From: a virus
Reading direction: 5' to 3' (one strand)
IMG/VR virus record: IMGVR_UViG_3300046169_000084
Span: 1-35,269 of that record
DNA length: 35,269 nt
This document shows positions 1 through 35,033 of the stretch, in pieces; position 1 is the stretch's first letter; each line of letters opens with the position of its first letter. The notes below the pieces were generated by a model. The model was given only the letters and a program-made list of their open reading frames with translations, made no database searches and was not told the DNA's origin. The translations under genes were made by a program, and so were the position numbers.

Positions 1-1
1 A

Positions 2-175
2 AATCCTTTTTATATAAGATTACTTTGGGTAGCTAGAAGTAACAAGATTCGTAAATACGAAAGCCAAATTCATAAAATAATAAGAGGCAGTCACCATAGA
101 GGGGAATGGTATGATATACCGCAAATACTAGCCAAACAACTTAGAAACATAGTGAGACACGATGAAGAAAGCTAA
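2..175 (+). CDS. GIY-YIG (MUG113/T5orf172-type) endonuclease, C-terminal part
   Basis: The frame is open from the left edge and encodes the last 57 residues of a nuclease whose N-terminal part is at 35023-35269. Visible family signatures are NPFYIRLL, then E-S-Q-I-H-K (the Glu and His expected near the metal site) and GEWYDI, a typical close of the MUG113/T5orf172 branch of GIY-YIG nucleases. It overlaps the next gene by 14 bases. It lies inside the terminase large subunit gene, so a homing-type role is inferred. The two parts would be in frame if 1, 4, 7... bases are missing between the window ends; a direct join runs into a stop. Activity is not shown by sequence alone. Confidence 0.75.
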   Translation, partial: NPFYIRLLWVARSNKIRKYESQIHKIIRGSHHRGEWYDIPQILAKQLRNIVRHDEES

Positions 176-509
176 AGTAATAATGTATGCTCGTTTTGGG
201 GTAAACGTAGAACAAGACGAGATAGACTACATAAAAACAAAGATGGAAGAGTTCTTAGAGATGATAGAGGCTGAACTTGTTGGTCAGAAGTGGGAGATAC
301 TGGCAAAGAATCAGAGTTCTAAGGCGATACACGAGATTATAAAGCAATGCGGAAAGAATGGATGGGCTATCCTGACATACGACCTTAAAACATTACACCA
401 GCACCATTCAGGTGCAATGTCCTTAATAGCGGAGGGTGACGATGTCGGTGTGCCTGTCTATTTCATTGAGGGAGGCGCTGTCATGCAAACATTATTCAGT
501 AGATTATGA
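162..509 (+). CDS. Resolvase-fold protein, catalytically degenerate
   Basis: The 115 residues follow the layout of a serine-recombinase N-terminal domain: a first strand with YAR, an EQ at the place of the usual Q/E, a middle helix, a strand AILTYDL, and a closing VPVYFIEGG strand. The nucleophile position (S in YARVS) reads F-G, and the Arg-rich DRLxR segment reads DLKTLHQ, so strand-exchange chemistry looks lost. There is no C-terminal DNA-binding domain. It overlaps the GIY-YIG gene upstream and, by four bases (ATGA), the terminase nuclease part downstream, so it travels with the insertion that splits terminase. It could be a DNA-binding or structural helper, or simply share the fold. Confidence 0.5.
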   Translation: MKKAKVIMYARFGVNVEQDEIDYIKTKMEEFLEMIEAELVGQKWEILAKNQSSKAIHEIIKQCGKNGWAILTYDLKTLHQHHSGAMSLIAEGDDVGVPVYFIEGGAVMQTLFSRL

Positions 510-1291
510 GAGAACCAGATAAGGTCTGGGACATACCCCTATGGGAAACCAATCACAGTAAACAACGACTGCTCCAAGAGGAAGCGATGGACTTTCTGTC
601 GTATAAACTTGGATACGAAATGAGCGAGGAAACAGATGACCCAACGAGAAAGGCTTACAAACACTTTGACGGATACAATCACTACCCTGATGGGAATCTT
701 ACGGCTCTTGATTACGATAGTGGGCATCCTGTCTGGCTTTGTGCTGATTTCAACAGGTCTCCTCATTGTTGGGCTCTTCTCCAAGTTAAAAGAGCTCGTA
801 ATGGGCTTAAGCAGTATGTTATTTTCGATGAAATCTTCTCCAAAGAGGCTTTAACCACTGAGCAAGCCCTAAAAGCAGTAGAATTACTGAAAAAATGGGG
901 TGTTTCTAAGGTTTTATTGGCTGGAGACAACACTTCCAACCAAAAAAGTGGTAATTATGGTCGTGTAGGTAAAAATGATTGGGACTACGTGCGAGAAGTC
1001 TTTGATGAACACGACATTTCGTATAAAAACGAGCTAGACATCCAGAACCCTAAAAGAAAGGTTCGTGTAGACAAAGTAAACAACGTAATTTACGCTGGAA
1101 CCAATGGAGAAAGGCGTTTATTGGTCAATACTCGCTGCGAACACGTCATAAAGGATTATATGTACTCCATTGTAAACGATAAAGGGCTAAAAATAGACAA
1201 TGGAGATAGGGGTCACATGTCCGATGCTACTGATTACGCTATCTGGCGTAATGAACGTGGCAGTAATGCCCCTATGTATGTGCTCCGCTAA
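506..1291 (+). CDS. terL: Terminase large subunit, C-terminal nuclease part (split gene)
   Basis: This 261-residue protein is the RNase H-like headful nuclease of a large terminase. The three acidic positions expected of the fold are visible: D81 in LCADFNRSP, D141 in LLAGDNT, and D240/D243 in GHMSDATDYAIW, the usual last motif. The N-terminal stretch DIPLWETNHS is the linker normally found just after the ATPase domain. The ATPase part is a separate gene at 34218-35033; together they give 532 residues, a normal full length. The start ATG overlaps the stop of the preceding gene, so it is likely made by translational coupling. I infer that the two chains assemble into a working terminase that cuts and packages DNA through the portal. 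Confidence 0.88.
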   Translation: MREPDKVWDIPLWETNHSKQRLLQEEAMDFLSYKLGYEMSEETDDPTRKAYKHFDGYNHYPDGNLTALDYDSGHPVWLCADFNRSPHCWALLQVKRARNGLKQYVIFDEIFSKEALTTEQALKAVELLKKWGVSKVLLAGDNTSNQKSGNYGRVGKNDWDYVREVFDEHDISYKNELDIQNPKRKVRVDKVNNVIYAGTNGERRLLVNTRCEHVIKDYMYSIVNDKGLKIDNGDRGHMSDATDYAIWRNERGSNAPMYVLR

Positions 1292-1671
1292 CTTCTTTTA
1301 ATGGATTTAGCTCGTTTGCCCATACCAACACGTCTCTTTTCACGAACAGCCTTCTTGCCCTCGCCACGTTTACGTAGTTCTTGCCACGTTACTGGGGTCT
1401 TAGAGGAAACCTTAACGGTGGGTCGACATTTCTTTACGCCTTTGAACTTGGCAGAGCCACAAGCCTGTCCGTCTTGGGTCTTCCATTTCTCCTTCATCCA
1501 TCGGGCTACACCAGTTGTACCTGACTTCTTGCCTTTATACGTTCCACCCCTTTTCTTGTATTCCTTTACTATCCACGCAGAAGCATACGCACTAGGGAAT
1601 ATCTTGAACTTACGTTTAGCCTCAGATTTAACTCGGCTGTATAGGGCTGGTTTTGCTGGAGTATTTGCCAT
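1288..1671 (-). CDS. Small basic protein, DUF5872-like
   Basis: The 127-residue product is strongly basic. It carries the pattern FPSAYASAWIVKEYKKRGGTY, then TGVARWMKEKW, then a CG...CRPTVKVSSKTPVTWQEL tail. This is the arrangement I associate with DUF5872-type proteins of phages and large DNA viruses; their function is unknown. It runs against the late operon, tail to tail with the terminase nuclease part (4-base overlap) and divergent from the next gene, like an independently expressed moron. Its upstream region holds a 9-bp inverted repeat. Nucleic-acid binding is plausible from charge only. Confidence 0.65.
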   Translation of the reverse strand: MANTPAKPALYSRVKSEAKRKFKIFPSAYASAWIVKEYKKRGGTYKGKKSGTTGVARWMKEKWKTQDGQACGSAKFKGVKKCRPTVKVSSKTPVTWQELRKRGEGKKAVREKRRVGMGKRAKSIKRS

Positions 1672-1705
1672 AATTGCGTCAAACTTATGGCTGAATTACA
1701 CTAAA

Positions 1706-1732
1706 ATTCAATACCTTACTTTAGTATTGAAT
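1706..1732. promoter_or_regulatory. Inverted repeat in divergent promoter region
   Basis: ATTCAATAC and GTATTGAAT are perfect 9-base arms separated by 9 bases. They sit between the minus-strand DUF5872-like gene and the plus-strand gene starting at 1764. The position suits an operator for a dimeric repressor or a hairpin in a leader; no T-run follows, so a terminator is less likely. Confidence 0.5.
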
Positions 1733-1763
1733 CTTTATGGAATATACGTATATTTTTGACACC

Positions 1764-2048
1764 ATGAGTAGCAAAAAAGACCCAAAACTTACAAGGTACG
1801 GAGTAAGTGGCTATAACAAGCCTAAACGGACTCCAAGTCATCCTACTAAGTCTCATATTGTAGTAGCAAAAGTGGGCAACAAAGTAAAGGTTATACGCTT
1901 TGGTCAACAGGGTGTATCAGGTGCAGGCAAGAACCCTAAGACTAAGGCTGCAAAAGCTAGACGCAAATCCTTCAAGGCTAGACACGCAAAGAACATAGCT
2001 AAAGGACGTATGTCAGCAGCATATTGGGCGGATAAAGTAAAATGGTAA
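1764..2048 (+). CDS. Small basic protein, conserved phage family (DUF6321-like)
   Basis: From ATG 1764 the product has 94 residues. It begins with a lysine-rich KKDPKLTR segment and SGYNKPKRTPSHPTKSH, and ends in RKSFKARHAKNIAKGRMSAAYW...KW. I recognise this as a conserved small phage protein often near packaging and portal genes, of unknown function. An in-frame ATG at 1737 would add nine residues; I prefer 1764 because relatives begin with the KKDPKL segment. The high Lys/Arg content suggests DNA contact during packaging, but that is inference. Confidence 0.68.
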   Translation: MSSKKDPKLTRYGVSGYNKPKRTPSHPTKSHIVVAKVGNKVKVIRFGQQGVSGAGKNPKTKAAKARRKSFKARHAKNIAKGRMSAAYWADKVKW

Positions 2049-2052
2049 CGTT

Positions 2053-2172
2053 ATGCCTCTTCAGCGTGGTTCTTCACCAAATATTATTCAGCAAAACATT
2101 CGACAACTTATCAAAGAGGGTTATACGAAGCAACAAGCTATCGCTATAGCCCTACAATACTCAAGAAAGTAA
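2053..2172 (+). CDS. 39-residue basic protein (DUF6496-like)
   Basis: The product is MPLQRGSSPNIIQQ followed by NIRQLIKEGYTKQQAIAIAL and a short basic end. It matches the layout of a tiny phage family: a basic start, an N-I-R...G-x-x-x-x-Q-A-x-A-I-A helix, and a Lys/Arg tail. Its stop overlaps the portal start by one base, so translation is probably coupled to the portal gene. No function is known; the family is commonly found next to portal or terminase genes. Confidence 0.6.
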   Translation: MPLQRGSSPNIIQQNIRQLIKEGYTKQQAIAIALQYSRK

Positions 2173-3731
2173 TGATAGACACCTCAAAGTTATATTCCGT
2201 ATCCAAAGACGCTGTCGAAGACATCGTAATGAAAGAAACTCGTCACCCGTATTATAGCGTGGTTCTTGACCGAGCTAAAATCATGAACAGTTGGTTCCAA
2301 GCGGAGTATGACGAATACACAGCCATTTCTAGCACGGTCTTTTCTGATAAGTCCTATATCATTGACCAGAGCAGTATTGAGTCGGATGAAGAGTACAGAG
2401 AGCGTTTAGGTCGAATGAAGCTGTTCCCACTGGAGCAGAAGTTCTTCTCGGCACAACAGCGCATTTATGACGAGAACAACGTCAACCGAATGTACCCTGA
2501 CAACAAAGATTTCTGGAAGTGGAAGGAAACGAATTTTGATGATGCAGGGTGTTCCATCACTGAGTTTTACCGAGACAAGGTTCTCTTCGTAAAAGAGGTT
2601 TTGGGGTTTGGTGCAGTAGTAACCGACCTTATGATAGATGGTAACGGAAACCCTGTTACCGACACAGACGGCAACGTAGTTCCTTACAACTTTGTTGTGC
2701 GTCCCCACGAAATATGGAACTTTCAAGTGAAGCAAGGCGCTCTCACGTTGCTTGTTACTAGGCAAATGTATTATGACCTAGACAACGTTAAGAAGCATAA
2801 GTGGACTGCCTACACACCTGAGTACATCTGCGTGTACATCGAAGAGAATGGGAAGAAACAAAAGACTCTGGAAATACCTAATCCATTCGGAGAGGTTCCA
2901 GCCACGCTACTCAAGGGTCAGACGGATGCTAACAGTTCGTTCATTGTAGGTAAACCTCGTAGATATTCCCTTAAGGGTATGTACCTAGCCTCTTCTGAGT
3001 TGTTTTATGACCTGAAGAAGGGTTCTGAACTGTTCGGGCATCCTATTCCTGTTCTCACAGATTCCATTGTTCGAAGTCTAGCTGGTGTAGCTGATGATGA
3101 CCAGTACGACTCTCGCACCATCAAAGAGGGTGTTGGTATGGCTATCATCATTCCTGATGACCAGCAAATACCTAGTAATATGTTGTACCAAGCAGATATG
3201 CAGGGCTTACAGCACCTTAGAGACGTAATTTTTGGTGATTTAATGTCGCTCATTTTCTCTATGGCTCAGGTTCGAGACAAGTCCATTGTTAAGAGCAATG
3301 TATCGGGCTCTGCTAAGAGATTTGATAACGTAGAAGAACAAGGGTTACTAGCGTCTACCGCTATGGACATGGAGATGATAGAGATGCAGGTGCTTAGAAG
3401 AATGGCTAAGGTTCGTGATGAGGACTACGAAGGATACGGTGTAACCTATTCGAAACATTACGACTTATCCAGTGCGGATGAGATATTCCAAGACATTACA
3501 GAAGGAATGCAGTACCACGCAATGTCTCTGCCTCTCATTAAGAAGTTGACCAGTGAATATATGCGCAAGCGCTCCATGCCTCAAGAAGACATTGAAGAAG
3601 TAATGCAACATTTTGATGATTATGGTATGCCTAAAACGCCTACTGACCTACGAAATTTAGTGGATATTCTTCCACAAGAAGAACTTCAACGCCAAGCACA
3701 AGTTGGTATTGAAACACAAAGCGAGCAATAA
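2172..3731 (+). CDS. Portal protein
   Basis: The 519-residue protein lies directly after the terminase module and before the scaffold and coat genes, the usual portal position, and has a normal portal length. The N-terminal half is rich in aromatic and acidic residues. The segment around residues 355-415 (IFSMAQVRDKS, SGSAKRFDNVEEQGLLAS, MEMIEMQVL) resembles the long stem and wing helices of portal families. It would form the dodecameric ring at the capsid vertex, bind the terminase and act as the DNA channel. The assignment rests on context and general resemblance, not a single diagnostic motif. Confidence 0.78.
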   Translation: MIDTSKLYSVSKDAVEDIVMKETRHPYYSVVLDRAKIMNSWFQAEYDEYTAISSTVFSDKSYIIDQSSIESDEEYRERLGRMKLFPLEQKFFSAQQRIYDENNVNRMYPDNKDFWKWKETNFDDAGCSITEFYRDKVLFVKEVLGFGAVVTDLMIDGNGNPVTDTDGNVVPYNFVVRPHEIWNFQVKQGALTLLVTRQMYYDLDNVKKHKWTAYTPEYICVYIEENGKKQKTLEIPNPFGEVPATLLKGQTDANSSFIVGKPRRYSLKGMYLASSELFYDLKKGSELFGHPIPVLTDSIVRSLAGVADDDQYDSRTIKEGVGMAIIIPDDQQIPSNMLYQADMQGLQHLRDVIFGDLMSLIFSMAQVRDKSIVKSNVSGSAKRFDNVEEQGLLASTAMDMEMIEMQVLRRMAKVRDEDYEGYGVTYSKHYDLSSADEIFQDITEGMQYHAMSLPLIKKLTSEYMRKRSMPQEDIEEVMQHFDDYGMPKTPTDLRNLVDILPQEELQRQAQVGIETQSEQ

Positions 3732-3749
3732 TTAACTTATAATCACATT

Positions 3750-4496
3750 ATGAGCGAACAAAACATAGAGCAAGCTGATGCTCCTGAATCAGCAGTAGAG
3801 GAGACAACCTCACAAAACACCGTACAAACACAACCAGAATTCGACAAAGACAAGTTTTTTCGTGGTGCATACAACGAAGGAAAAAGTAAGGTCGAAAAGG
3901 ACGTTGTAGGAAAGTTCTCTGAATTACTGGGAAATAACGTTGAGTCATTAGACGATGCTTTTTCGCTAATCCAACAGACGCTTCAACCCAAGCAAGAAGA
4001 GAAGGGTGAGTCTGAAAAGTTGCGTGAGCTATTGCAACAGTACCAGCAAGAAGCTGAGTCTGCAAAAGAGCAACTCATGATGACTCAAATGGAGAATCGC
4101 ATAAACACTGAGTTTCAGTCAGCGTTCAGCGCACTCCAACAAGATAATGAACTGACTTTACGCCAAGACTATGTAGAACAACTGTTCTATAACGAGTACG
4201 AGATAGAGGAGTCTAATGGGGAGTTTTATGCCGTTAAAGATGGTGTTCCTGACTTAGACGAACAGGGCAACAGAAAGTCAGTGGCTAACTCACTCGTTGA
4301 GTTTGCTAAACAATTTGCGAAGCCCAAGAAAGTGGGCGCTGGCGGAGCAACTGGTGGTACTCCAGCTAGTAGTGAAAGACCTAGTCGAGCAGAGTTTCAA
4401 GAACTTGTGCGCTCGTCTAATCCAGCAGACCGTGCTAAGGCAGAGGAGCTTTTCGGAGCGATGAGAGCCGCAGGCGGTTGGGCTGAACAAGCGTAA
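3750..4496 (+). CDS. Scaffolding protein
   Basis: The 248-residue product is highly charged. It has an acidic, disordered N-terminus (1-30), Gln/Glu-rich helical stretches (70-130) likely to form coiled coils, and a Gly/Ala-rich linker followed by a short helical end with AGGWAEQA. This composition, together with its place between portal and coat genes, is characteristic of internal capsid scaffolds. It is expected to guide coat assembly into a procapsid and then leave. No protease motif is visible, so scaffold removal is probably not by a self-encoded protease here. Confidence 0.72.
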   Translation: MSEQNIEQADAPESAVEETTSQNTVQTQPEFDKDKFFRGAYNEGKSKVEKDVVGKFSELLGNNVESLDDAFSLIQQTLQPKQEEKGESEKLRELLQQYQQEAESAKEQLMMTQMENRINTEFQSAFSALQQDNELTLRQDYVEQLFYNEYEIEESNGEFYAVKDGVPDLDEQGNRKSVANSLVEFAKQFAKPKKVGAGGATGGTPASSERPSRAEFQELVRSSNPADRAKAEELFGAMRAAGGWAEQA

Positions 4497-4602
4497 ATCC
4501 ATCTTATTATGGTTAGGCAAAACCTTAATTGTCATGTTCTGGTCATAGCGACCCAAAAGCTAAAATATAACATTATACCTATAATTTAACTTTTATAAAG
4601 AC
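4497..4602. other. Intergenic leader before the coat gene
   Basis: This 106-base AT-rich gap is the longest in the head module before the coat gene. It includes TATAAT near 4580 but no convincing -35 at the right distance. It may hold a coat-specific promoter or an RNA processing site; I cannot decide from sequence. Confidence 0.3.
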
Positions 4603-5796
4603 ATGGCAATTAATAGTAATTTTTCCATTTACGAACCAGAGGCGTTTGTTGAGGTAGCTCTAGCTAACCAGTATCCAAACCGACCAATGGTATCAAAAGC
4701 CGTTACTAACGTAGCTGGCGCATCTATCGAAGGTCTCGTTGCAGCTCGTAACAAGACTGTAAGTATCACTCGTGCAGTAAAGCCTACTGGAGCTCCTAGC
4801 TCTTACTCAGGTTCTTACTCTCTAGGTACTCCTGACGCTAACGAAGAGCAATTAGTAATCAACAAGCATTACTACTCTGGATTCAGCATCGACAAGGCTG
4901 ACCAAAAGTTTGCGCTTCCTGACTTAGTACAACAGCACTTCGTACCAAGACTACACCAGCTTATTGACCAAATCAATAGTGACGTGAAAGTTGAGGCTCG
5001 TAAGGCTTTTGAAGTAGCTTTCGCTGACAACAACACTGACTCTACTGTAATGGACGACAATGACCTTGCAGAAGCTAGAAAGATTATGGCTTCTCGTAAG
5101 TTCACTACTGATAACCTAATGATGGTTATTGACCCATTCGTAGAGAAAGACCTTACTACTTTGAACATCTTCCAACAAGCCAACACTCGTGGTTCTGCTG
5201 ACATTCAGTTAGGTGGAGCTATGGCTCGTGCTTATGGTTTTGACTTCTTCGTAGACAACGAAGGTTCTAGTCACACTGTTGCTACTGTAACTGACGCTAC
5301 TATCGCAGCTACTGAAGCTATAGGACAAACTGAGCTAACTATCGACAATGGTAGTGGTGGTGCAGCAACTGTATCTTTAGCTGAGGGTGACATCGTTACT
5401 TTCGGTTCTGCTAAAGGCACTGATGACTTCTACACTGTTCAGTCTCAAACTGGAACTGTATTGACTATTAAAGAGCCATTACGTGCTGCTCTTGCTAATA
5501 ACGATACTATCAACCCAGTTGATATTGCTTCAGGCGACACTGGTCGTGAGCAGTTCTTCTACGACCCATCTGCCCTTGCCTTAGTAACTGCTGTTATGCC
5601 TTCAGTGGATAGCGGTTCAGGTTCTGGCGTGCGTAGAGCTGCTGGTTTCGAGCCAATGAACAACGTAAACTACACATTGACTATCGAAGAAACCAAGTCA
5701 GGTGCTGACGTACTTATCGAAGTTCTTTACGGAGCTAAAGTATTCAGACCAGACCTAGGTGGACGATACATTCGTGGTAACGTAGCTAAGGCGTAA
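4603..5796 (+). CDS. Major capsid (coat) protein, P22-like HK97 fold
   Basis: The 397-residue protein starts with a helical N-arm (IYEPEAFVEVALANQYPNRP). It has the NKHYYSGFSIDKADQKFALPD segment and the long helix with DQINSDVKVEARKAF seen in P22-type coat proteins. Residues 225-305 form a beta-rich insertion (ELTIDNGSG, GDIVTFG, YTVQSQTGTVLTI) like the I-domain of that family, followed by PSALALVTAVMP and a closing GGRYIRGN strand. Codon use is strikingly uniform (many ACT, GCT, GAC), as expected of a highly expressed gene, and a strong terminator follows directly. It builds the icosahedral shell on the scaffold. Confidence 0.85.
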   Translation: MAINSNFSIYEPEAFVEVALANQYPNRPMVSKAVTNVAGASIEGLVAARNKTVSITRAVKPTGAPSSYSGSYSLGTPDANEEQLVINKHYYSGFSIDKADQKFALPDLVQQHFVPRLHQLIDQINSDVKVEARKAFEVAFADNNTDSTVMDDNDLAEARKIMASRKFTTDNLMMVIDPFVEKDLTTLNIFQQANTRGSADIQLGGAMARAYGFDFFVDNEGSSHTVATVTDATIAATEAIGQTELTIDNGSGGAATVSLAEGDIVTFGSAKGTDDFYTVQSQTGTVLTIKEPLRAALANNDTINPVDIASGDTGREQFFYDPSALALVTAVMPSVDSGSGSGVRRAAGFEPMNNVNYTLTIEETKSGADVLIEVLYGAKVFRPDLGGRYIRGNVAKA

Positions 5797-13832: not shown

Positions 13833-14325
13833 TAAAATAAGCTCAATATACATTAGGAAGGCTGGTGGAAGCAGCTGGAGTTACACGATAACTACCAACA
13901 ACTTTACTAGCGACATAGGTCAGGTAAACTTTGGCTCGGCTTATGATGAGGCTTTAGATGCTAGTCTAAGACAGAATCTTCGTGGCTTTCGGTTTACCTT
14001 AGACTTGAATTGGGCTAAACTTTTATCATCAACGTTTGCTGGTAGTGGTGGGGGTGGTAACACAGCCAGTGCCTTCTTACAGGATTTAGTTAGTGCGTTT
14101 ACTGGTGGAGATTCGTATGTAGAAGTGTCGTTTAGTGGTTCTTTTACTACACTATTTGATGACACTAATGGGGCAACAGCTAACGCTTTTAAGTTTATTT
14201 TAGACAGCTCTAGTATTACCACTGCATACACCAATCAAATAGGTCGTGGTTCAGCTAACATTAAGCTGATAGCGCAAGAACTAGCAACAACCATACCAGC
14301 AGCACTCCAAGCACCTAGCGTATAA
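13819..14325 (+). CDS. Baseplate/tail tip protein, paralogue B
   Basis: The 168-residue protein shares the YDEALDASLRQNLRGFRFTL segment with its upstream neighbour and the same overall strand order, so the pair arose by duplication. It carries a Gly-rich loop (GSGGGGN) absent from the other copy. Located just before the large fibre gene, it may form the ring to which fibres attach. No catalytic motif is present. Confidence 0.5.
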   Translation: MALSSKISSIYIRKAGGSSWSYTITTNNFTSDIGQVNFGSAYDEALDASLRQNLRGFRFTLDLNWAKLLSSTFAGSGGGGNTASAFLQDLVSAFTGGDSYVEVSFSGSFTTLFDDTNGATANAFKFILDSSSITTAYTNQIGRGSANIKLIAQELATTIPAALQAPSV

Positions 14326-14328
14326 TAT

Positions 14329-17300
14329 ATGGCAACCGAAGTAAAACGTAGACGAGGCTCAACTTCAGACCACGAAGATTTTATTGGCGCTGTAGGAGAA
14401 CTTACGGTAGATTTAGATAAAGACACTGTAGTTGTTCATAACGGTCAAGATGAGGGAGGTTTTCCATTACTTCGTGAAGACTTTAGTAATGCTATATTTA
14501 CTGTACCTGATGCTAGATACCTACTTGAAAGCAATAATCTATCCGACCTTGATAACGTATCCACCGCCAGAGACAACCTAGAACTTGGTGCTAGTGATGA
14601 TGTAACGTTTAATACGGTAACAGCTGACCTAATTGGAGATGTTACTGGTAACGTTACAGGGGACGTAACAGGCGACCTTACTGGTGCTATTCACGTACAA
14701 GGAAAGAATGATACGGGTGGCACATTAACAAAAGGCACACCAGTCTACATATCAGGACAAGTTGCTCAAGGTCAGCAGTTCACGATAGGTGTAGCTGATT
14801 CTGATGGTAGTGGCACAATGCCTTCGATTGGAGTTTTATCGGCTGATGTGAATGATAATGCTATGGGTGATATAGTTACTCATGGTAAGTTAATAGGGAT
14901 AGATACAAGTTCTTTTACAGTAGGCGATGAATTGTTTATCGGCTCTAATGGTACGCTTGTAAATACACCACCAACTGGTGAAAGCAACCTACTTCAGAAA
15001 ATTGCTAAGGTCATACGAGTTGATGGTAGTAGTGGACAAATTTACATCATGGGTGCAGGTCGTACCAATGCCGTACCTAACCTAGACGAAGGAAAAATAT
15101 TCGCAGGTGATGCTAACAACCAAGCAGTAACAACTGATGTAATTGATGTTAATATAGCTAGTGGTCTTGTAACTATAAACGATGACCTAACTGTTAATGG
15201 TATAGTCATCACCGATGAAATAGATACGACCAGTATTACGTGGAACACAAGCACGCTAGAATGGGATGCTGACCCTAGTGAGAAGTTTAATAACCCAGTA
15301 TTTATTGGGACGAGTTTAGACGTTGATAACGGTATCAATGCAGACCAACACGTTCATGCAGGAACATACCTAAAAGCAGACACATACTTAGAAGTAGGCA
15401 CAAGTGCAACGATAGGCACTACACTAGATGTAACTGGAGCAACCACACTAAGCACATTAAATGTAACTGGTAATACTATCATATCGGGAACACTAGATGC
15501 TCCTACATTGAACACTGGTCAAGGCGATAATGAGTTATACGCTATGAACCAAGATGTTCAGACTACTGATGGCGTAATCTTTGATACTTTATCGGTTACG
15601 AATAATGCTTCGGTAGGTGGCTCGCTTACTTTATCGGGTGAAGCTGACTTTAATAGTACGATGAACCTACAAGGCGATTTGACTACGCAAGCAAACTTAG
15701 CAGATGATGGGTATGCTACTGGATGGTCGGGAACGAATTGGCAGATACAAGCAGATGGCTCGGCAGAACTCCAAGAGTTAAGGGTACGTGGAGCGTTACG
15801 AGTCTTTGAATTTATAGCAAAACAGATTAGTACGATAGGCGGTTCTGAAATCCTTAGCATCGCACAAGGTAGAGTAGTAAGTGTTGATTCAGACAATGAC
15901 ACTATTACAGTTGAAAACGTAACTGGTACGGCAGGCAATTCATTCAAAGAAAATGACTTATTTATCTGTCAGGTTACCGATATAAATAACGACTTAGAAA
16001 GTGGTGGAACTGGTTCTATTGTTAAGTCGGTTCGTGGTGGTGTTCTTGGTGTAGTAGGTAATGATATAGAAGTTTCTATTACTTCGGGCAATCTTACTGA
16101 CTTAGTTACTGGTGATTTGATTGTTGCCTATGGTAATACATTAGATGCAGATAGGCAGGCTATAATGTATCGTAACGTAGACAGGTCAGAAGATAGCCTT
16201 ATAATGAGAATGCAAACCGAAGTAAATGGGTTTTCTGATTTACAAAACGAAGCAAATACTAGGGTAGCTTTTGGCGATTTAGGACCAAGACCAAGTAATT
16301 CTACTGGATATTCGGGTTTAACTTCTGAAACTTTCGGATTCTTTGCAGGCGATAATTCGGGTGGACATATTCTAGCTACTAGTAGTGGATTATTCTTAAA
16401 GGATGGTGGTACTACGCTTGCTCAATTAACGAGCAATACCTTTAAGGTAGGCGGTGATACAAAATATATTGAGTTTGATGGTACGGATTTAGACATACAG
16501 ACCGACACATTTAATTTAGATACTACAAATCTAGATATAAGCAGTGCGAATGAAAACATAGTCATAGGTACGGGTTCGGCATTAATGACTGTCGGCAAGT
16601 TAAGTAGTGTAGAGCAAGGCATAAAAATAGATTCTAATGGAATAACTAATCAGAACTATTGGAAACTAGGTCAAGGCGATGTACTTTTTAAAGTGGGCGA
16701 TGGTACTAACTTCTTATCATTTAATGAGAATGCAGGTACGTTTGAAATTAAATCAGAAGTATTTGATTTAACGTCTGGTAACCTTAGAATTAAATCAACA
16801 GGAACTACGTATCCATCAGATAGTGCTAATACAGAAGTTACCACGTCAGATGTATCTGATTTTAGACTTGCCACATTAGCAAACGGTTTTAACACAAACT
16901 CATTAGCTATAAATAATAATAGATGGGTTAAGTTTCAATTTGATTACTCTCAAAGTGTTCCTGCTGGTTCTTTTACTGCTGGTATTACCGTAACACTTGA
17001 GGTTAGTACGAATAATTCTACTTTTACTGATTATGGGTTGTTTTCAGATACTAGGATAGATTTTAACACGAATTATTTTGTTGCAGATAACGCAACTGGA
17101 AACAGACTTAATGTTGTAGACCAATCTGATAGTACAAAAACTGAATTTAAATTTACCTCTAGCCAAACTGGTTCTTGCACTGGAACAATTACTATGTATT
17201 TTTACGTGAACGAAAAAGATACGACTACACACATACGCTTTAATGTCTTAGATTCTTCTGGGGTAACATTAAGTGGAGCTTCGGCTACTGACATAGGAAC

Positions 17301-23245: not shown

Positions 23246-23308
23246 TTTTCTTTGATTAAGTTATAGTTGAAGTTTAAATATAGATGAGTGAGTGAAGAAA
23301 GTCAATAA

Positions 23309-24544
23309 CTAAATTTTTAGTCCTAGGTCTTTGTGGTGCAGTAGTTTGATGCGTTCATGTGTGAGCTGTCCTCGCCTGCTCTTCACAACCTTAACGAACA
23401 CACTCTCATAGGAGTGAACGTCACCATCTCTCCACCCCTTAACCTTGAGGTCACCAAACCCATCCATGAGGATAAGGGACTCAACCATGTTGGGTCGGAA
23501 CACTGAGGTCATACAATGAGCCACGTTCTTAATGACTTGCGCCCATTGAGCGTCCTTATACTTAGGCTCTAGTTGCCATCCTGAACGATTATATTCAGAG
23601 ATAGTCACTTGGCTAGGCACGATGACCAACACGTTGAGTTCTTTGGCTATCTGCTTTAGTATTTTAGTTACATAGTTAATCTCTAAGGTTCTTGAGTCGA
23701 ACCTGCCCTGAGCATACACTTCTTGCACGTAGTCAATAACCACGAAGTCAAGACCACCCTCAATTTTTGCTAGACGGCACAGACGCTTAATTTCGTCTAT
23801 GTCATCGGTGTTGTCTACGATGCGCACGTTATCAGCGTGAGCTACTGCTTGTAGGGCTAACTGGGTAGCCGTGTTCACGTCATAATCCTCCATTTGAAAC
23901 CACAGACCCTGATAGCCTTGTACCGCCAACCTAGAAGCTAGGAACGTTGACCATTGGGTCTTTCCATGCCCTGAATCGGCTAGTATCACGTTTATATCGC
24001 CCTTGTGTAGACCCACGTGCTGATAGAGTTGCTCATCTACCTTTGGTTCACCCGTGATTAGCTTCTCCTTCTTGGGCTGGGATTCTTCTCGCTCGAAGAT
24101 TTGTGTTGGGGTTAGCGCATCTACTGGGGTAGCTTCGTCCAGTTCGCCACTGAGCTTATCTATCTGCATCATTAGTTCGTCCATTGTTGTGGACGGATTA
24201 TGAGCGAGCTGGGTAGCCTCGGTCAGGGACTTGGTTAGCCTTCGCCTATCAGCCGTGTCCTTCAGGATACGAGAGTACCCCTTAATGTCGTGCTCAGAGG
24301 TGCGTTGGTGCATCTGAAGCTCAAGTAGATAATCACAGCTATAATTATCCAGCCTAGCCGCTAAGGTGTCCTCATTGAACAGGATGCCTTGTGCGTGTTG
24401 CTCGCACGCTTCTAAGTAAATGGGGTGCAGGTTAGGGAAGTGGGTAGCGTCCGTTACATTGAATATAAGGTCTCTGTATTCTTTGTTAGCAATGAGCGTA
24501 CCAACCAGCACTTCCTCTAAGTGCCTTTGGTCTAATTGGCTCAT
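23309..24544 (-). CDS. Replicative DNA helicase, DnaB family
   Basis: The 411-residue protein has the two-part DnaB layout. An N-terminal helical domain (1-130, starting DQRHLEEVLVGTLI) resembles the primase/loader-contact domain. The RecA-like motor has Walker A ADSGHGKT (189-196), Walker B FVVIDY (267-272), a VIVPSQ segment (307-312) like the motif-3 region, and KVVKSRRGQ near the end (arginine-finger/loop region). It is shorter than the about 470-residue bacterial enzyme, as usual in phages. It unwinds DNA at the fork, here probably loaded through the O-like protein encoded divergently. Its start overlaps the previous stop (ATGA). Confidence 0.88.
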   Translation of the reverse strand: MSQLDQRHLEEVLVGTLIANKEYRDLIFNVTDATHFPNLHPIYLEACEQHAQGILFNEDTLAARLDNYSCDYLLELQMHQRTSEHDIKGYSRILKDTADRRRLTKSLTEATQLAHNPSTTMDELMMQIDKLSGELDEATPVDALTPTQIFEREESQPKKEKLITGEPKVDEQLYQHVGLHKGDINVILADSGHGKTQWSTFLASRLAVQGYQGLWFQMEDYDVNTATQLALQAVAHADNVRIVDNTDDIDEIKRLCRLAKIEGGLDFVVIDYVQEVYAQGRFDSRTLEINYVTKILKQIAKELNVLVIVPSQVTISEYNRSGWQLEPKYKDAQWAQVIKNVAHCMTSVFRPNMVESLILMDGFGDLKVKGWRDGDVHSYESVFVKVVKSRRGQLTHERIKLLHHKDLGLKI

Positions 24545-24780
24545 AGCAACTCAACGGCTTTGCTGCGCCCGTAAGCGGTGATACTATAAAGGGCAGGATG
24601 CTTGTCCTCAGACGTTATAATACCTGCTTGTATCATGCTACATATCGTTGAAAAGGTAGTCCAATAAATGTCGTGTGTACCCTGCGTCATTAAGGGTTCT
24701 ATGTCCGCATACGTGACCTGACCCTTTTCGTTAATTAGTTTTAGTATGGACAGTTCGTTCTTAGTCATTTTTCTTCTCAT
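24541..24780 (-). CDS. Small winged-helix protein
   Basis: The 79-residue product reads as a winged-helix domain: NELSILKLINEKGQVTYADI, a recognition helix TTFSTICSMIQAG, and a beta wing ITSEDKHPALYSITAYGRS. An alternative ATG at 24768, four codons in, has a closer GAGAAG site and would start MTKNEL. It overlaps both neighbours and lies in the replication operon before the helicase, so a DNA-binding regulator or helicase-loading accessory is possible. Confidence 0.65.
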   Translation of the reverse strand: MRRKMTKNELSILKLINEKGQVTYADIEPLMTQGTHDIYWTTFSTICSMIQAGIITSEDKHPALYSITAYGRSKAVELL

Positions 24781-25177
24781 TAGTTTTTCTTAAATCTCTT
24801 TTAGTTACGGTTCCATTTTTGTTGAATGTGTGAGTGACCCATCCTTTACGGTCATACCACGTCATCGCAAGCACCCTAATATATTTACCAGCAAACTTCT
24901 TAGCAAAACGAATATACGATTTTTGTGTGGGTGGTCGGTTCGTCTTGATTTGCACGAGCCAAACGTTACTCCCATCCATGGCTATAATATCGAATCCATC
25001 GAACTTGGTATCAGAATGATTACATTCCTCAAGCCAACACTTTGTGCAGAGTCCAGCGAATAAGTCTTTGGATTTTCGGAAGCGCCCTCCCAGCTCTACC
25101 TCATCCACTATCATCCCTTTCTCGTGGAAGAAGGCTATGGCTTTAGTGACGGTTCTGCGACCTTTTGCTTTGGACAT
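24761..25177 (-). CDS. PD-(D/E)XK-fold nuclease, small
   Basis: The 138-residue protein carries FDGFDIIAMDGSNVWLVQIK, where D63 and the Q76-I-K78 motif fit the PD-(D/E)XK active site with Gln in place of Glu, as in some resolvase-like and VRR-type members. A C44-x2-C47...C52-x-H54 cluster (LCTKCWLEECNH) suggests a bound metal. It shares one base with the upstream gene, another nuclease. A role in phage recombination or in degrading host DNA is inferred. Confidence 0.65.
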   Translation of the reverse strand: MSKAKGRRTVTKAIAFFHEKGMIVDEVELGGRFRKSKDLFAGLCTKCWLEECNHSDTKFDGFDIIAMDGSNVWLVQIKTNRPPTQKSYIRFAKKFAGKYIRVLAMTWYDRKGWVTHTFNKNGTVTKRDLRKTNEKKND

Positions 25178-25719
25178 CAGCTAGAATAATCGTTGCTAAT
25201 ATAATAATCGTTGCTATCAACATAGTTTCCTTCTCGGTCTAATTTTATTAGGGTGTGATTAATTTTTGGTAGGCTCGTGTTAGGTAGGAGCCACCCAGCT
25301 GCGTTACCCTCCACTGAGTTTCCAGTTGTGGGAATGTCTACGTTCTCGCACAAGAAATTTCTAAGTTCTCTTGTCTTGAACACATATAAGCGGTACGTGT
25401 TGTCGGGCATCAAGAAAAAGTACGCATACTTATCTGACTTGGTCTTGAAGATACCACTAGGCTCGAACTGTTTGGTATTAAACATCTCAATGTAGAAGTT
25501 AAATCCCTTCTTGTTCTTGAGAAACATACCCGTTACGTCTAGCTTTACCTCTACCAAAACCGTTCTGCCTTCAAGTGTTATCGCCTTTATGTCCCAATCT
25601 GGAAATCGTTTAGGAGGGGCGGAGAAACACTCATAGCCTAGCTTGGTTAGATAGCTAGTCAAGAGTGCCTCGCCCTTTTCGCCATTCTTATTTAGCACGT
25701 TTGAAGTCCTCCGACTCAT
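25177..25719 (-). CDS. PD-(D/E)XK-fold nuclease
   Basis: From ATG 25719 the product has 180 residues; a GTG at 25734 would add five. It begins with NKNGEKGEALLTSYLTKLGY, a helix with the conserved Glu (E17), followed by RFPDWDIKAI (D41/D43) and VLVEVKLD (E57, K59): the full E...PD...ExK pattern of Holliday-junction-resolvase or restriction-like nucleases. The C-terminal half has strands and a KTRELRNFL helix. It overlaps the broken gene upstream by 32 bases. It probably acts in phage DNA recombination or branch resolution, but family-level identity is unsure. Confidence 0.7.
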   Translation of the reverse strand: MSRRTSNVLNKNGEKGEALLTSYLTKLGYECFSAPPKRFPDWDIKAITLEGRTVLVEVKLDVTGMFLKNKKGFNFYIEMFNTKQFEPSGIFKTKSDKYAYFFLMPDNTYRLYVFKTRELRNFLCENVDIPTTGNSVEGNAAGWLLPNTSLPKINHTLIKLDREGNYVDSNDYYISNDYSS

Positions 25720-26127
25720 CTTCGCTAAACACACCCTCTGAGTAGAACCCAGTGATTTGTAGAACGGCTCTCGCTTTTGCTCGCTTTTCAGCGGTCTCTA
25801 CTGGATAGTGGGGTAATACACCGCCAGCTTTCTTAGTTTTTACAGGGACAGTTGTAGTGGTTAGCCGTGCCATAAGACTCTACGGTATATACCTCACCAT
25901 TAGCATCTAATTTTTCGGCAATAGCCTTAATACAACAGTTCTCTTGTCCGTCAGGTTAGTTCGGGCACAACCTCATAGGTTACCGTAATCTTATCGTGCG
26001 CCATTATCTTCTCTACCCCAGTTCGGGTAATGATAATGAACCCTTGGTACGGGTGCTTGAAGAAGTCCTTGCCAGTAAGTTTGTACCTTTCGGCAAGCGT
26101 TTTTAGTGTGTTTTGTTCTGTGCTCAT
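25688..26127 (-). pseudogene. ssDNA-binding/annealing-type recombination gene with two frameshifts
   Basis: One protein can be read in three frames. ATG 26127 starts MSTEQNTLKTLAERYKLTG and continues FFKHPYQGFIIITRTGVEKI to a TGA at 25951. The next frame gives DGQENCCIKAIAEKLDANG and VYTVESYGT. The third gives TTTTVPVKTKKAGG, then YPVETAEKRAKARAVLQITG and GVFSEDESEDF to 25688. Both breaks are cured by removing one A from CTAACC (near 25954-25959 and 25859-25864). The Y-P-V-E-x-A-E-K-R-A-x-x-R-A-V-L motif resembles conserved phage proteins beside RecE-like nucleases, plausibly annealases or ssDNA binders. It could be a true pseudogene, sequencing error or recoding. Confidence 0.65.
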
Positions 26128-26969
26128 AATAGTGTAATTGTATTAGTATTAGGTAAGCCCATCTCGGCTTGTTTTGGGTCATTTTTCCACTCACCGATGC
26201 GATACTTAATCACATTCAGCTCCTTGAGTGCGTTCATCTGTGTTTCGGGGTTTAGCCCATATACCGCTGTATTATAGGGGTATTGCTTCTCTATTGCAAC
26301 GAAATAGAAATCATCCACTAGGATGCCCATTACATCGCAATAGAACGCTGCTTGTAGGTCATATCGGTACTTCCAAAAGTCCGAGCGAAAAGATTTTTCA
26401 CTAGCGTCCCTACATGACTTCCAATCTATGATAGCCATTGGCTCCTCGTTTCGGACGAGTAATCGGTCAGGTCTGACACGATACTTTAGTCCGTGCATAT
26501 CTTCCTCATCAGTCAGGAACGAATACTCATCCCACGAATCTGATGGGTCATACATATTGTATATCTCCTTCACCGCAGGGTTATCGTTCATGGACTGATA
26601 CATATATTGGATGGTATACATATCATTCTCTGATATAGACACTTGATTTTCGCCAAGAGAGCACTCAAAGTCCTTCTTATGGGTCTTATAGTCCTTAGTC
26701 ATTGTGGGGCTCGTAATGTCGGGTCTCCTCTCAAGGATTTTTGCTATTATCTCGGAGTCCTTGAACACTTTGAATCGTTTGTGGAATGCTTGCCCATCCT
26801 CAAAATAGGTGTGCATAGCATCACCAAACAGTAGCGCTTGGCTCGGCTCAATGGGTTGTAGCGCCTTAGCAATTGAGTGCTTAGCCACACTCTTCACGAA
26901 TGAACTAGATATATAGTCCTTTAGTGCGTGGTAATCATTGTTGGACATATCACTATAAGTCTTCATCAT
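26124..26969 (-). CDS. RecE-like PD-(D/E)XK exonuclease
   Basis: The 281-residue protein begins YSDMSNNDYHALKDYISSS, the start typical of RecE-C/DUF3799-type nucleases. It then has LLFGDAMHTYFED (H53), YRVRPDRLLV (D168), MAIIDWKSC (D182, K184) and YDLQAAFYCDV (Q206), matching the H...D...D-x-K...Y-x-x-Q order of the family. It should digest one DNA strand from ends to make substrates for annealing; the partner would be the following (broken) gene, whose ATG overlaps this stop by four bases. It is in the replication/recombination operon. Confidence 0.82.
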   Translation of the reverse strand: MMKTYSDMSNNDYHALKDYISSSFVKSVAKHSIAKALQPIEPSQALLFGDAMHTYFEDGQAFHKRFKVFKDSEIIAKILERRPDITSPTMTKDYKTHKKDFECSLGENQVSISENDMYTIQYMYQSMNDNPAVKEIYNMYDPSDSWDEYSFLTDEEDMHGLKYRVRPDRLLVRNEEPMAIIDWKSCRDASEKSFRSDFWKYRYDLQAAFYCDVMGILVDDFYFVAIEKQYPYNTAVYGLNPETQMNALKELNVIKYRIGEWKNDPKQAEMGLPNTNTITLL

Positions 26970-27198
26970 GTACCTCCTGAGGGAATTTGTTTATGGATAG
27001 GGCTGGCTTTTCGAAGCCACTTAGAAATCCCTCTATCTTGAATAGAAGTTCTTCTGCTTCTTCTGACATCATTGTTTCGGGCATCTTAGTAAAATCTGAT
27101 GGGGTTTCACCATCATCATAAAACACCTCATGAAATGAGTACATTTTTTGTTTGCCTGAATTATCAAGCATCAATCGGTAGTCCCAAGCTGGTTTCAT
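26953..27198 (-). CDS. Unknown small acidic protein
   Basis: The 81-residue acidic product starts MKPAWDYRLMLDNSGKQ, has a strand pair (YSFHEVFYDDGE) and a helix (EEAEELLFKIEGFLSGF). It has an excellent ribosome binding site (AAGGAGG) and overlaps the RecE-like gene by 17 bases. Similar small proteins recur before RecE-like genes, but I can name no function. Confidence 0.6.
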   Translation of the reverse strand: MKPAWDYRLMLDNSGKQKMYSFHEVFYDDGETPSDFTKMPETMMSEEAEELLFKIEGFLSGFEKPALSINKFPQEVHDEDL

Positions 27199-27352
27199 CC
27201 TGTATTCCTCCTTTTAATTGTTGTTGGTTTGATTTAGCCGAGTGTAGGCACACCTCAAATGCCCTTATGTAGGCACGTGTATACTCATCGGGGTTAGGTA
27301 GAGAGCGCAAACCTGATAGGAATGCGTTCATAAATTGTATGTGTTCTTCCAT
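27164..27352 (-). CDS. First gene of the replication operon, unknown
   Basis: From ATG 27352 the product has 62 residues: MEEHIQFMNAFLSGLRSLPN, then a helix with AYIRAFEVCLHSAKS. The open frame extends upstream to 27487, but that part covers the divergent promoter region. The chosen ATG follows AAAGGATACACACA, the same leader style as the DnaA-domain gene. Its end overlaps the next gene by 35 bases. No known family. Confidence 0.6.
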   Translation of the reverse strand: MEEHIQFMNAFLSGLRSLPNPDEYTRAYIRAFEVCLHSAKSNQQQLKGGIQDETSLGLPIDA

Positions 27353-27452
27353 TGTGTGTATCCTTTGTGATTCTTGATTGTGGATAAATTTATAAAAAAG
27401 TATTGAGTATCCAAAATTATTTTTATATTCGGGTAAACAAATAAGGAAAACT
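27353..27452. promoter_or_regulatory. Divergent promoter region with DnaA box
   Basis: This 100-base AT-rich region lies between the leftward replication operon and the rightward O-like gene. Leftward: TTGGAT (27414-27409), 16 bases, TAAATT (27392-27387). An alternative leftward match is TTG-N18-TAATTTTG (27440-27412), which fits the Bacteroidota pattern. Rightward: TTGAGT (27403-27408), 17 bases, TATTCG, a weaker match. Overlap of opposing elements suggests mutual exclusion. Confidence 0.55.
27379..27387 (-). promoter_or_regulatory. DnaA box TTATCCACA (perfect)
   Basis: The + strand reads TGTGGATAA, the complement of TTATCCACA. It overlaps the last base of the leftward -10 TAAATT, just as the other box overlaps the -10 at 21458. 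Host DnaA or the phage DnaA-domain protein could block this promoter. Confidence 0.8.
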
Positions 27453-28115
27453 ATGCTAGAAGTACCCAACCACACACAAATACCCAATGTAATAATTGAC
27501 CAGCATATGTCTGAGTTGTCCCACGCTCAGTTCAAGGTGCTGATGGCTATATGCCGAAAGACCATTGGTTGGCACAAGCAGTCGGATTATATAAGCATAT
27601 CCCAAATAGTGGAGCTAACTGGGGTGTCTAACAAGACCGTAGTGGGAGCCATCAAGCAACTCGAAAAGAAGGGGTTCATTGTGACCCAAAAGACTAAGCA
27701 CGCTACCACCCTTATCACTATCAACTATGAGGTAACTAGTGTAGTGAGTACACAGGGTAGTGTAATGGTTACACCACCTAGTGTAGTGAGTACACCACTT
27801 AGTAGTGTAGTGAGTACACACACAAAAGAAACTATAAATAAAGAAGAAGAGGAACAATGTAGCATACCCACCCTTGATGATGTTATAAAATATTTTGACG
27901 GGAATGGGTACACTACGGATAGTGCTAAGAAGATGTATAATTATTATCAGGCATCTGTTAAGGGTAGCAGGCAGAAGTATTGGAAGGATAGTAGGGGTAA
28001 CCTAGTTAGGAGCTGGAGGCAGAAGGCTCAATCTGTTTGGTTTAAGCCTGAGAACAAGAAGAAGGGTGAGGATAGCTGGGAGTCTCAGGGATTTTCACCA
28101 GTGGTTATCAGGTAA
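27453..28115 (+). CDS. Lambda O-like replication initiator
   Basis: The 220-residue protein has the Phage_rep_O winged-helix N-terminus: VPNHTQIPNVIIDQ, LSHAQFKVLMAICRKTIGWHK, ISISQIVELTGVSNKTVVGA, IKQLEKKGFIVTQK. The middle (residues about 95-123) is a low-complexity SVVST repeat encoded by four DNA iterons, followed by an acidic KEEEEQ stretch. The C-terminal part (DDVIKYFDGNGY...WKDSRGNLVRSWRQKAQSVWF) resembles the end of DnaT/DnaD- or O-type loaders. It should bind the iterons and bring the DnaB-family helicase, encoded divergently, to the origin. Confidence 0.8.
   Translation: MLEVPNHTQIPNVIIDQHMSELSHAQFKVLMAICRKTIGWHKQSDYISISQIVELTGVSNKTVVGAIKQLEKKGFIVTQKTKHATTLITINYEVTSVVSTQGSVMVTPPSVVSTPLSSVVSTHTKETINKEEEEQCSIPTLDDVIKYFDGNGYTTDSAKKMYNYYQASVKGSRQKYWKDSRGNLVRSWRQKAQSVWFKPENKKKGEDSWESQGFSPVVIR
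27737..27820 (+). repeat. Four iterons in the O-like gene, GTGTA-N5-TACAC
   Basis: Four 18-base units TAGTGTAGTGAGTACACM start at 27737, 27758 (variant), 27779 and 27803: spacings of 21, 21 and 24, all whole codons and about two helical turns. Three are identical in the first 17 bases. The second has TAGTGTAATGGTTACACC, with the spacer altered but both arms GTGTA and TACAC intact. Confidence 0.85.
27737..27870. other. Probable replication origin (iterons plus A-rich segment)
   Basis: The iterons are followed by a purine-rich, A-rich stretch (about 27822-27856: AAAAGAAACTATAAATAAAG and onward) suited to duplex opening. The arrangement is the one of lambda ori, which lies inside gene O. The DnaA box lies about 350 bases upstream. 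Function is inferred. Confidence 0.6.
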
Positions 28116-30662: not shown

Positions 30663-30845
30663 ATGTTTGGCAAAAAAGAGCCTCTATTAAACAAATATAA
30701 TGTAGACTCTTTTAAACCTAATAAAGTAGAATATAAACAACTTGAAGATTTACATATATCTTTAGCTGAAGATTATAATCTAAAAGGATTTGAACTTCAA
30801 TCTATAATTTGGACACAAAAAAGAAATGAACACTATGGAATATAA
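30663..30845 (+). CDS. Unknown protein
   Basis: The 60-residue product contains DSFKPNKVEYKQLEDLHISL and ends WTQKRNEHYGI. It lies alone between a 72-base AT-rich gap and a broken open frame. Compositional match to its neighbours supports it; no family is recognised. Confidence 0.4.
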   Translation: MFGKKEPLLNKYNVDSFKPNKVEYKQLEDLHISLAEDYNLKGFELQSIIWTQKRNEHYGI

Positions 30846-31034
30846 TAACCTATATATAAAACTAATAGAACATAAGATAAAACAATATAAACTATCTTAG
30901 ATACTGACATAGAAAAAACTAGATTAAATAGATTAGTAAAAATGAGTAATGATAGATTATATAAAAGTATATATTTATACGAGTATAAAATATTATGTGA
31001 ATACTTCAACGATAAATTTTTAGATAGCCTATAG
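30835..31034 (+). pseudogene. Possible frameshifted small gene
   Basis: ATG 30835 opens MEYNNLYIKLIEHKIKQYKL and stops at 30900. A neighbouring frame continues without a start codon as LDTDIEKTRLNRLVKMSNDR and YEYKILCEYFNDKFLDSL to a stop at 31032-31034. The two read as one helical protein with a one-base shift near 30892. Alternatively only the 30 codons from ATG 30942 are used. It borders repeat array B. Confidence 0.35.
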
Positions 31035-31330
31035 ATTTTTATGTATCCTAGATTTCTATATATCCTATAAATTTTTATGTACCTTTAAATTTTTATATAC
31101 CCTAAATTTTTATATACCCTAAAGTAGAAATATAAATATAAATAGAAATATATCTTGAAATATAAATATATATTTACCTAGAAATAAAAATATACTTAGA
31201 AATATATATATACCTAATATTAGAATATACACTAAAGTAGGAATATATATTATATTAGAATATACCTTAAAATATATATATACCTAGAAATAGAAATATA
31301 TATTATAATATACTAGAAACTAATATTAGA
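31031..31330 (+). repeat. AT-rich repeat array B
   Basis: About fifteen degenerate units of roughly 17-20 bases run head to tail: first ATAGATTTTTATGTATCCT, AGATTTCTATATATCCT and AAATTTTTATATACCCT (twice), then AGAAATATATATATACCT-like forms. Units begin A(G/A)A and end ACC(C)T. There are no fixed-length unique spacers, so it is not a CRISPR. No protein is encoded. Confidence 0.7.
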
Positions 31331-31492
31331 TTAATTATTATACGAAAAAATAATATTTGCATATATCAAAAATGTATTTATTAATACTGTTAAAATGTGT
31401 TTACATTCTTTTACAAAATATATTTTGCATATTTGAAATATATGTTATATCTTTCTTTCAGTTACTTAAGTAACTACTTAACACTTAATTAA
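31331..31492 (+). promoter_or_regulatory. Early leader region 3: operator module and promoter
   Basis: It contains TTGCATAT (31357), TTTACATTCTTTTACA (31400-31415), and TTGCAT (31425) -17 bases- TATCTT, then ACTTAAGTAACTACTTAAC before the ATG at 31493. The same order of motifs precedes the operon at 30086. Confidence 0.55.
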
Positions 31493-34068: not shown

Positions 34069-34243
34069 CATTAAACGCTACATATTTCCTGAAATGAAAG
34101 AAAACTTTATACCTAAGCCCGTACCCCTAAAAAACAAAGCACGAGTATTTAAATGCGTGGGGCAAGTATCTACTGGTAAGCGGTGCGAGGTGCAGTGCAC
34201 ACTGTGCAAACGAGCTTATGAGCCAAAAACCAAAAAAGAATAA
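34046..34243 (+). CDS. Small Cys-containing protein
   Basis: The 65-residue product has three closely placed cysteines and one before (FKCVGQVSTGKRCEVQCTLC), suggesting a small zinc-binding knuckle, and a basic end. It has a GGAG site upstream, overlaps the previous gene by 23 bases and overlaps the terminase start by 26. Packaging-associated or regulatory function unknown. Confidence 0.55.
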   Translation: MNGSNSNNIKRYIFPEMKENFIPKPVPLKNKARVFKCVGQVSTGKRCEVQCTLCKRAYEPKTKKE

Positions 34244-35033
34244 TTGGTCAGACTTATTAGTCAACATAGTAGGACACGAGCCACCTCCTGACTCGTTAGA
34301 CCTACGCAATTCTTTTATTGAAAACTGTTTAGCTGACCAAGATGGGTTCAAGGTTACCCAAGCCCAGATTCATCACACGATGCAGAAGGGTATCTATGAC
34401 TGGGAGCAACAAGCCTTGTCCATGAACGCCCGTCTCAATGGGTTGATTCGTGCACCCTACAACACAGGAAAGTCCCAGCAAGTCCCCATTGGCTTGTCAG
34501 CGTATATGACCACTCGAAAGCACGAGCTAGAAACGCTTATAGTATCTGCTGACGGTGGTATCTCAACCAAGAGGATATTATCCCTAAGAGCCTTGTTTCA
34601 GAGTGATATGTACCGCTACTGGTGCAGAGAACACAACTTCAACCCTGTTGAGTTTGACAGAACCGACACAGGTTCAACGCAGCGCATCATCGTTAAGAGC
34701 CGTAACCGTACTGGTAACCCTACCTATGAGGCGTATGCCGTACTAACCCAAACTACGGGACAACGTGCTGGTGTCCTAATTCTTGATGACGTGTGTAACG
34801 ATGAAGATAGAATATCTACGGCTCGTAGGGAAACGGTATGGAATAAAGTATCGAACACTTGGATTAAGCGTGTACACGACAAAGGTATTGTTTTAAGCGT
34901 GTGTACACCATACCATCCTAATGACGCTAACAGCAGACTTATGAAGTCAGGTATCTTCAACGTACTACAAATATCGGTAAAAGAAGATAAGACTGGTTAC
35001 ATGGTTGAGGAGTGGAATAACTTTGAAAAGTAA
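34218..35033 (+). CDS. terL: Terminase large subunit, N-terminal ATPase part (split gene)
   Basis: The 271-residue product is the ATPase motor of a large terminase: Walker A APYNTGKS at 79-86, Walker B VLILDD at 186-191, and a coupling segment SVCTPYHPND at 227-236. It ends at YMVEEWNNFEK, exactly where the linker to the nuclease begins; that linker resumes at position 506 after the inserted genes. No nuclease motif is present in this chain. It should drive DNA into the capsid by ATP hydrolysis, in complex with the separately made nuclease. Confidence 0.88.
   Translation: MSQKPKKNNWSDLLVNIVGHEPPPDSLDLRNSFIENCLADQDGFKVTQAQIHHTMQKGIYDWEQQALSMNARLNGLIRAPYNTGKSQQVPIGLSAYMTTRKHELETLIVSADGGISTKRILSLRALFQSDMYRYWCREHNFNPVEFDRTDTGSTQRIIVKSRNRTGNPTYEAYAVLTQTTGQRAGVLILDDVCNDEDRISTARRETVWNKVSNTWIKRVHDKGIVLSVCTPYHPNDANSRLMKSGIFNVLQISVKEDKTGYMVEEWNNFEK

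Follow-up and report, generated by a model that had tools for sequence, protein, structure and literature searches.

Two private frame changes in a probable Rad52/Sak-like annealase gene of an uncultured virus contig

We analysed a virus record in full, a window of 35,269 bases in which an annealase-like gene at 25688-26127 on the minus strand spans three successive frames; reading the whole gene takes two +1 shifts. The double frame change was confirmed in the assembled sequence, and among the sequences compared, within the limits of the scans, both lesions were private to this record. The observations are best explained either by an error private to this assembly or by a break that happened very recently, in what is otherwise an ordinary annealase gene. 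As it stands, a double frameshift confined to a single assembled contig carries little significance; it would be a rare double-shift gene if the phage truly carried the lesions and still made the protein.

Frame changes in the window and the open frame in relatives

The pieces of the gene, the two extra letters as placed by alignment to relatives, and the adjacent nuclease gene are as follows.

26124..26969, minus strand: RecE-like nuclease (exonuclease VIII / DUF3799, PD-(D/E)XK), intact; phrog_412 E 5.4e-36, PF12684 E 2.4e-21
25954..26127, minus strand: piece 1 of the annealase-like gene, 58 codons (MSTEQ...PELT), then an in-frame TGA
25953 as aligned, equally one C of 25954-25955, minus strand: first extra letter
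25845..25952, minus strand: piece 2, 36 codons (DGQEN...HYNCP) in the second frame
25844, minus strand: second extra letter
25688..25843, minus strand: piece 3, 51 codons (VKTKK...KRAK) plus stop in the third frame

Piece 1 aligned to residues 1-58 of ORFs from six relatives. Past 25845 the frame of piece 2 is out of frame and meets a TAA further on, and piece 3 contains the conserved stretch YPVETAEKRAKARAVL. The six longer relative contigs each carried a single ORF (6/6), which aligned in order to the three frames of the window. The two extra letters (near 25953 and at 25844) are separated by 109 bases, and the sequence contexts of both insertions are free of long homopolymers. The original prediction that the partner gene of the nuclease had gained one base at two places was borne out by this alignment to relatives.

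A scan of viral contigs gave 492 stretches that encode a relative of the annealase-like gene. The comparison with relatives that had been proposed as a check showed one open frame, over the part present, in all of the best 80 of these 492 (72 complete, and 8 truncated where their contigs end); because the scan was queried with the C-terminal piece, copies with a break there may rank lower or escape. The two exact words that span the lesions gave no match among viral contigs. Two words bearing private letters of the window away from the lesions likewise gave no match there, which leaves no sister contig for dating the lesions; the collection scans may miss the window's own record or near-identical ones. 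No DNA match of 23300-28100 was obtained in the phage collection. At the protein level, piece 3 matched 52 phage records, including 46 Flavobacterium phages and 3 Tenacibaculum phages, with identities of up to about 63% among the best 40 of the 52 matches, and the genome_contigs scan returned six distant loci.

The original prediction had placed both lesions at the same hexamer, CTAACC, from which one A was to be dropped. These words lie as follows.

25954..25959, minus strand: first CTAACC, encodes Leu-Thr; retained by 12 of 41 relatives
25859..25864, minus strand: second CTAACC, falls within Ala-Asn-His codons; retained by 20 of 41 relatives

The two hexamers are present in the gene and are 95 bases apart, as had been described, but the dropping of one A there was not confirmed, since relatives keep CTAACC in frame and read it as codons (CTA ACC, Leu-Thr; GCT AAC C.., Ala-Asn). 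We compared 42 close loci (L002-L043), of which 41 span both places and one (L042) is cut. No stop was found within the tested stretch in any of the 41, all of which passed a stop test whose pattern demanded Glu after Leu-Thr/Ser. Eight of the 41 carry CTAACC at both places and yet have no stop, and the identical-hexamer lesion was rejected on this ground. The first extra letter touches the edge of its hexamer, and 15 bases separate the second from the other hexamer. Dropping an A at the second hexamer gives TTTTVP in place of the NHYNC, with P or S after it, that the 41 relatives encode; the middle frame of the window retains the relatives' NHYNCP up to the second extra letter. The identity of the two hexamers, which had been considered striking, is a coincidence of conserved codons, and the idea of a modified motif therefore loses its basis.

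Identity of the protein and its neighbourhood

The gene product is probably a small protein with a Rad52/Sak-like annealase fold. The predicted structure of an intact relative (L007), built from an alignment with 28 others, had a pLDDT of 82.4 and a pTM of 0.78. In this model, strands were placed at residues 48-53, 63-73, and 79-89 and a helix at 106-125; on the same numbering, the lesions come just after residue 58 and residue 94, each of them between structural elements. The best match to the model among solved structures was human RAD52 (Foldseek E 8.6e-4, TM 0.44). A VIA comparison also placed RAD52 at the top, with Z 7.6 over 109 residues, a value below the trust level of 8 in a comparison where the best dsRBD row reaches Z 6.5; yeast Mgm101 (6.1), the Sak protein of phage 80alpha (5.8), and lambda Red-beta (5.1) appear lower down, interspersed with dsRBD and other rows. 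The viral structure models that were matched include proteins annotated as RecT, Rad52, and Erf. Excerpts of PMC11783212 describe Rad52-like annealing proteins as having a beta-sheet and a beta-hairpin motif, and the L007 model shows a predicted beta-sheet and hairpin with a long helix, a moderate rather than strong resemblance.

Searches by sequence were less specific. At a threshold of E 0.001, neither Pfam nor PHROGs assigned any of the 29 relatives to a curated annealase family; none matched a solved PDB chain at E up to 1. The unnamed phrog_22961 matched 26 of the 29, and Pfam RecT matched one, weakly (E 0.022). When the three pieces of the window gene were scanned apart, no PHROG was matched, and sub-threshold Pfam matches were obtained for the third piece only. 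The predicted fold, in which a long helix comes after strands and a hairpin, resembles RAD52, Mgm101, Sak of 80alpha, and Red-beta, and a RecE-like gene is the neighbour here; in contrast to Rad52/Sak-type proteins, the relatives are mostly about 130-150 residues long and belong to no named family, and the gene in this contig is twice out of frame. The family is common in virus contigs (492 stretches) and unnamed in the Pfam and PHROGs scans, and a Rad52-like label is a modest gain.

The nuclease gene sits directly upstream of the annealase-like gene in the window. A nuclease homologue adjoins the annealase in 37 of the 80 loci examined (the best 80 of the 492 relatives); the other 43 gave no nuclease match at E 1e-3, some of them being shortened by contig ends. 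The original assignment as a recombination gene beside a RecE-like nuclease thus finds probable support in the fold match and the neighbour. The same prediction had named a different full-length annealase gene elsewhere as evidence against it, and the PHROGs scans named no second annealase among the 49 listed ORFs of the window; these scans used E 1 in one case and 0.001 in the others, and many ORFs match no PHROG, so that an unnamed annealase is possible.

The nuclease was 66-67% identical to that of the window in L002-L004, L006, L010, L013, and L015 and 87-95% identical in L007-L009, L011, L012, and L014. The annealases of L002 and L007 are 99% identical despite their differing nucleases, and the nuclease partner seems to have been swapped among relatives. 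A 185-aa ORF at 25177-25734 on the minus strand, downstream of the annealase, is found in L002-L015 and has no match in L016-L081 (E 1e-3).

Letters at the lesions, a third indel, and explanations for the frame changes

We examined the alignment columns that precede the two extra letters in 21 gap-free close relatives. Column 174, before the first, holds T in 12, C in 6, and A in 3; column 282, before the second, holds C in 14 and T in 7. The window shows C and T adjacent at both insertions, and the same two letters segregate among the relatives there. Random insertions would leave such a C/T pair in 290 of 1648 cases (0.176), and the probability of both by chance is about 0.03, which for a pattern spotted post hoc is only moderately unlikely. 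Beside the first lesion, the window carries a private Glu-to-Asp change at column 177, which is G in all 21 relatives; this G-to-C change also gives rise to the UGA-C at the first place.

The private codon changes in the annealase-like gene are few, with three amino-acid and three silent changes in a tally that includes the first codon of piece 2, added from a separate alignment. The corresponding amino-acid/silent counts are 5/12 for the nuclease, 4/6 for the ORF at 26953-27198, and 0/8 for the DnaB-like helicase gene. The annealase-like gene therefore exhibited no clear excess of private changes over its neighbours that would suggest relaxed selection, and these counts give no clear sign of a long decay. 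The original view that the protein is otherwise intact, so that any break would be recent, agrees with pieces that are conserved apart from the three private amino-acid changes. In a mosaic test, the window's gene was no more mosaic than the genes of relatives, and the switches in its best mosaic path, at columns 61 and 187, coincide with neither lesion.

A census of frame changes was made with 597 ORFs from the relatives' contigs, of which 456 matched the window; it covered about 22.8 of the 30.3 kb of the 49 listed ORFs (about three quarters) with a relative's ORF of at least 60% identity on either strand. Four regions changed frame. Those at 4403-4556 and 14181-14517 (minus strand) were discounted, on inspection alone, as likely antisense shadows, since they lie largely opposite plus-strand genes, and the remaining two are the annealase-like gene and the following ORF.

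30826..31031, plus strand: third private lesion; a 69-aa ORF that L082, L083, and L085 keep intact is broken here, having lost one base near 30897

The third indel falls where L082 and L085 differ. In simulations of three scattered indels, some two fell within 110 bases with a frequency of 0.02 and two fell in one gene with a frequency of 0.11.

The gene is probably an ordinary small one encoding a Rad52/Sak-like annealing protein that would be the partner of the adjacent RecE-like nuclease, and in this one contig it carries two independent extra bases. As written, its product would be a 58-residue fragment that lacks both the later strands and the long helix and is unlikely to be a working annealase. 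We put at about even the chance that the lesions are consensus errors from mixed strains, in which the consensus may have written both strain letters, C and T, where the reads of co-assembled strains differed. This is consistent with the placement of both insertions at strain-polymorphic C/T columns, with the third private indel at a position that likewise differs between relatives, with the frame kept open in the best 80 relatives and the six longer contigs, with the absence of the lesion-spanning words from other viral contigs, with the otherwise conserved protein pieces, and with the PHROGs scans, which named no other annealase in the 49 listed ORFs. Indels at strain-polymorphic positions warrant inspection of the reads. 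Several observations argue against a consensus error: two of three indels within 110 bases are unusual for scattered errors, the C/T pattern was noticed after the fact, the gene is not extra mosaic and its path switches at neither lesion, and the Glu-to-Asp change is unexplained by a simple double-letter error. Near-identical records may also escape the scans, and the record is not error-rich throughout, because its positions 1-4966 are 100% identical to L082. A real and recent loss of the annealase, in which one frameshift would have killed the gene and the second followed without cost, is nearly as likely as a consensus error, and we hold it as a serious though tentative alternative; its route could be drift or escape from a host defence that senses the recombination protein. 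Frame-breaking lesions absent from relatives, which mark a pseudogene, are present in the assembled sequence. A dead gene would be expected to show clustered lesions, and no more than 110 bases separate two of the three private indels; the insertions are not in long homopolymers, and the private change at the Glu codon affects a letter at which all 21 relatives have G. Against such a loss stand the frame kept in 80 of the best 80 relatives, the intact nuclease partner, and private changes (3/3) in no clear excess over the nuclease and the ORF at 26953-27198; the break in a second, unrelated ORF points to a general cause, and a host defence system has no support in the present data. According to excerpts of PMC12407980, phage recombination genes are lost under defence pressure, as for D3 Exo-Erf and Gabija. 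That case resembles this one in the disabling of a recombination gene of a nuclease-annealase pair and differs from it in that two one-base gains are seen here, in an uncultured contig known from sequence alone. The excerpt of PMC11846896 mentions neither escape nor frameshift and has nothing on broken annealase genes.

Besides decay, the original prediction had listed two recoding events and a systematic sequencing error at a modified CTAACC motif; this was the right set of options, of which the motif error is refuted by the relatives. Two such words do lie near both frame changes, but the second change is 15 bases off its hexamer, both hexamers occur without a stop in 8 of 41 relatives, and of the 17 CTAACC words in the window (both strands) those at 4511 and 4664 lie inside a stretch that is letter-for-letter identical to another contig. 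We therefore assign the motif error a negligible probability. Programmed recoding would consist of two +1 ribosomal frameshifts in series, at a UGA-C after ACC and at a CCC-U, giving the full protein at a low level, and we consider it very improbable. UGA-C (RF2-type) and CCC-U are shift-prone contexts for +1 frameshifting. The local sequence matches them, and reading with a +1 shift at both places recovers the protein seen in relatives. In contrast to known programmed +1 frameshifting, however, the shift site is conserved in none of the 41 relatives spanning both places, which lack the extra letters and are open without shifting. Two low-efficiency events would be required in series, no upstream stimulator was seen by eye, and the 49 listed ORFs contain 10 in-frame instances of CCC with a T after it. 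It is similarly far-fetched that annealase output is throttled by translation through two +1 shifts, with the private G-to-C change that makes UGA-C as part of the adaptation. A literature search on programmed frameshift, phage, and annealing protein found no report, and two one-base gains in one gene call for comparison with relatives before any claim of recoding.

Organization of the record outside the annealase region

The identity of positions 1-4966 of the window to positions 1-4966 of L082 extends over 4,966 bases, and other parts of the two contigs are 95-97% identical. This may represent mosaic or recently exchanged DNA. An AT-rich tandem repeat array at 31012-31357, whose periods include about 17-18, 36, and 54, starts at the end of the broken 69-aa ORF.

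Two plus-strand ORFs, at 34218-35033 and 506-1291, each matched terminase large subunit families (phrog_38, 294-472 of 760; phrog_10250), and the sequences of relatives continue across the ends of the window. These findings suggest a split terminase and a circularly permuted record. Between the two terminase ORFs lies an ORF at 162-509, accompanied in the relatives L082 and L087 by a further, Cys-rich ORF.
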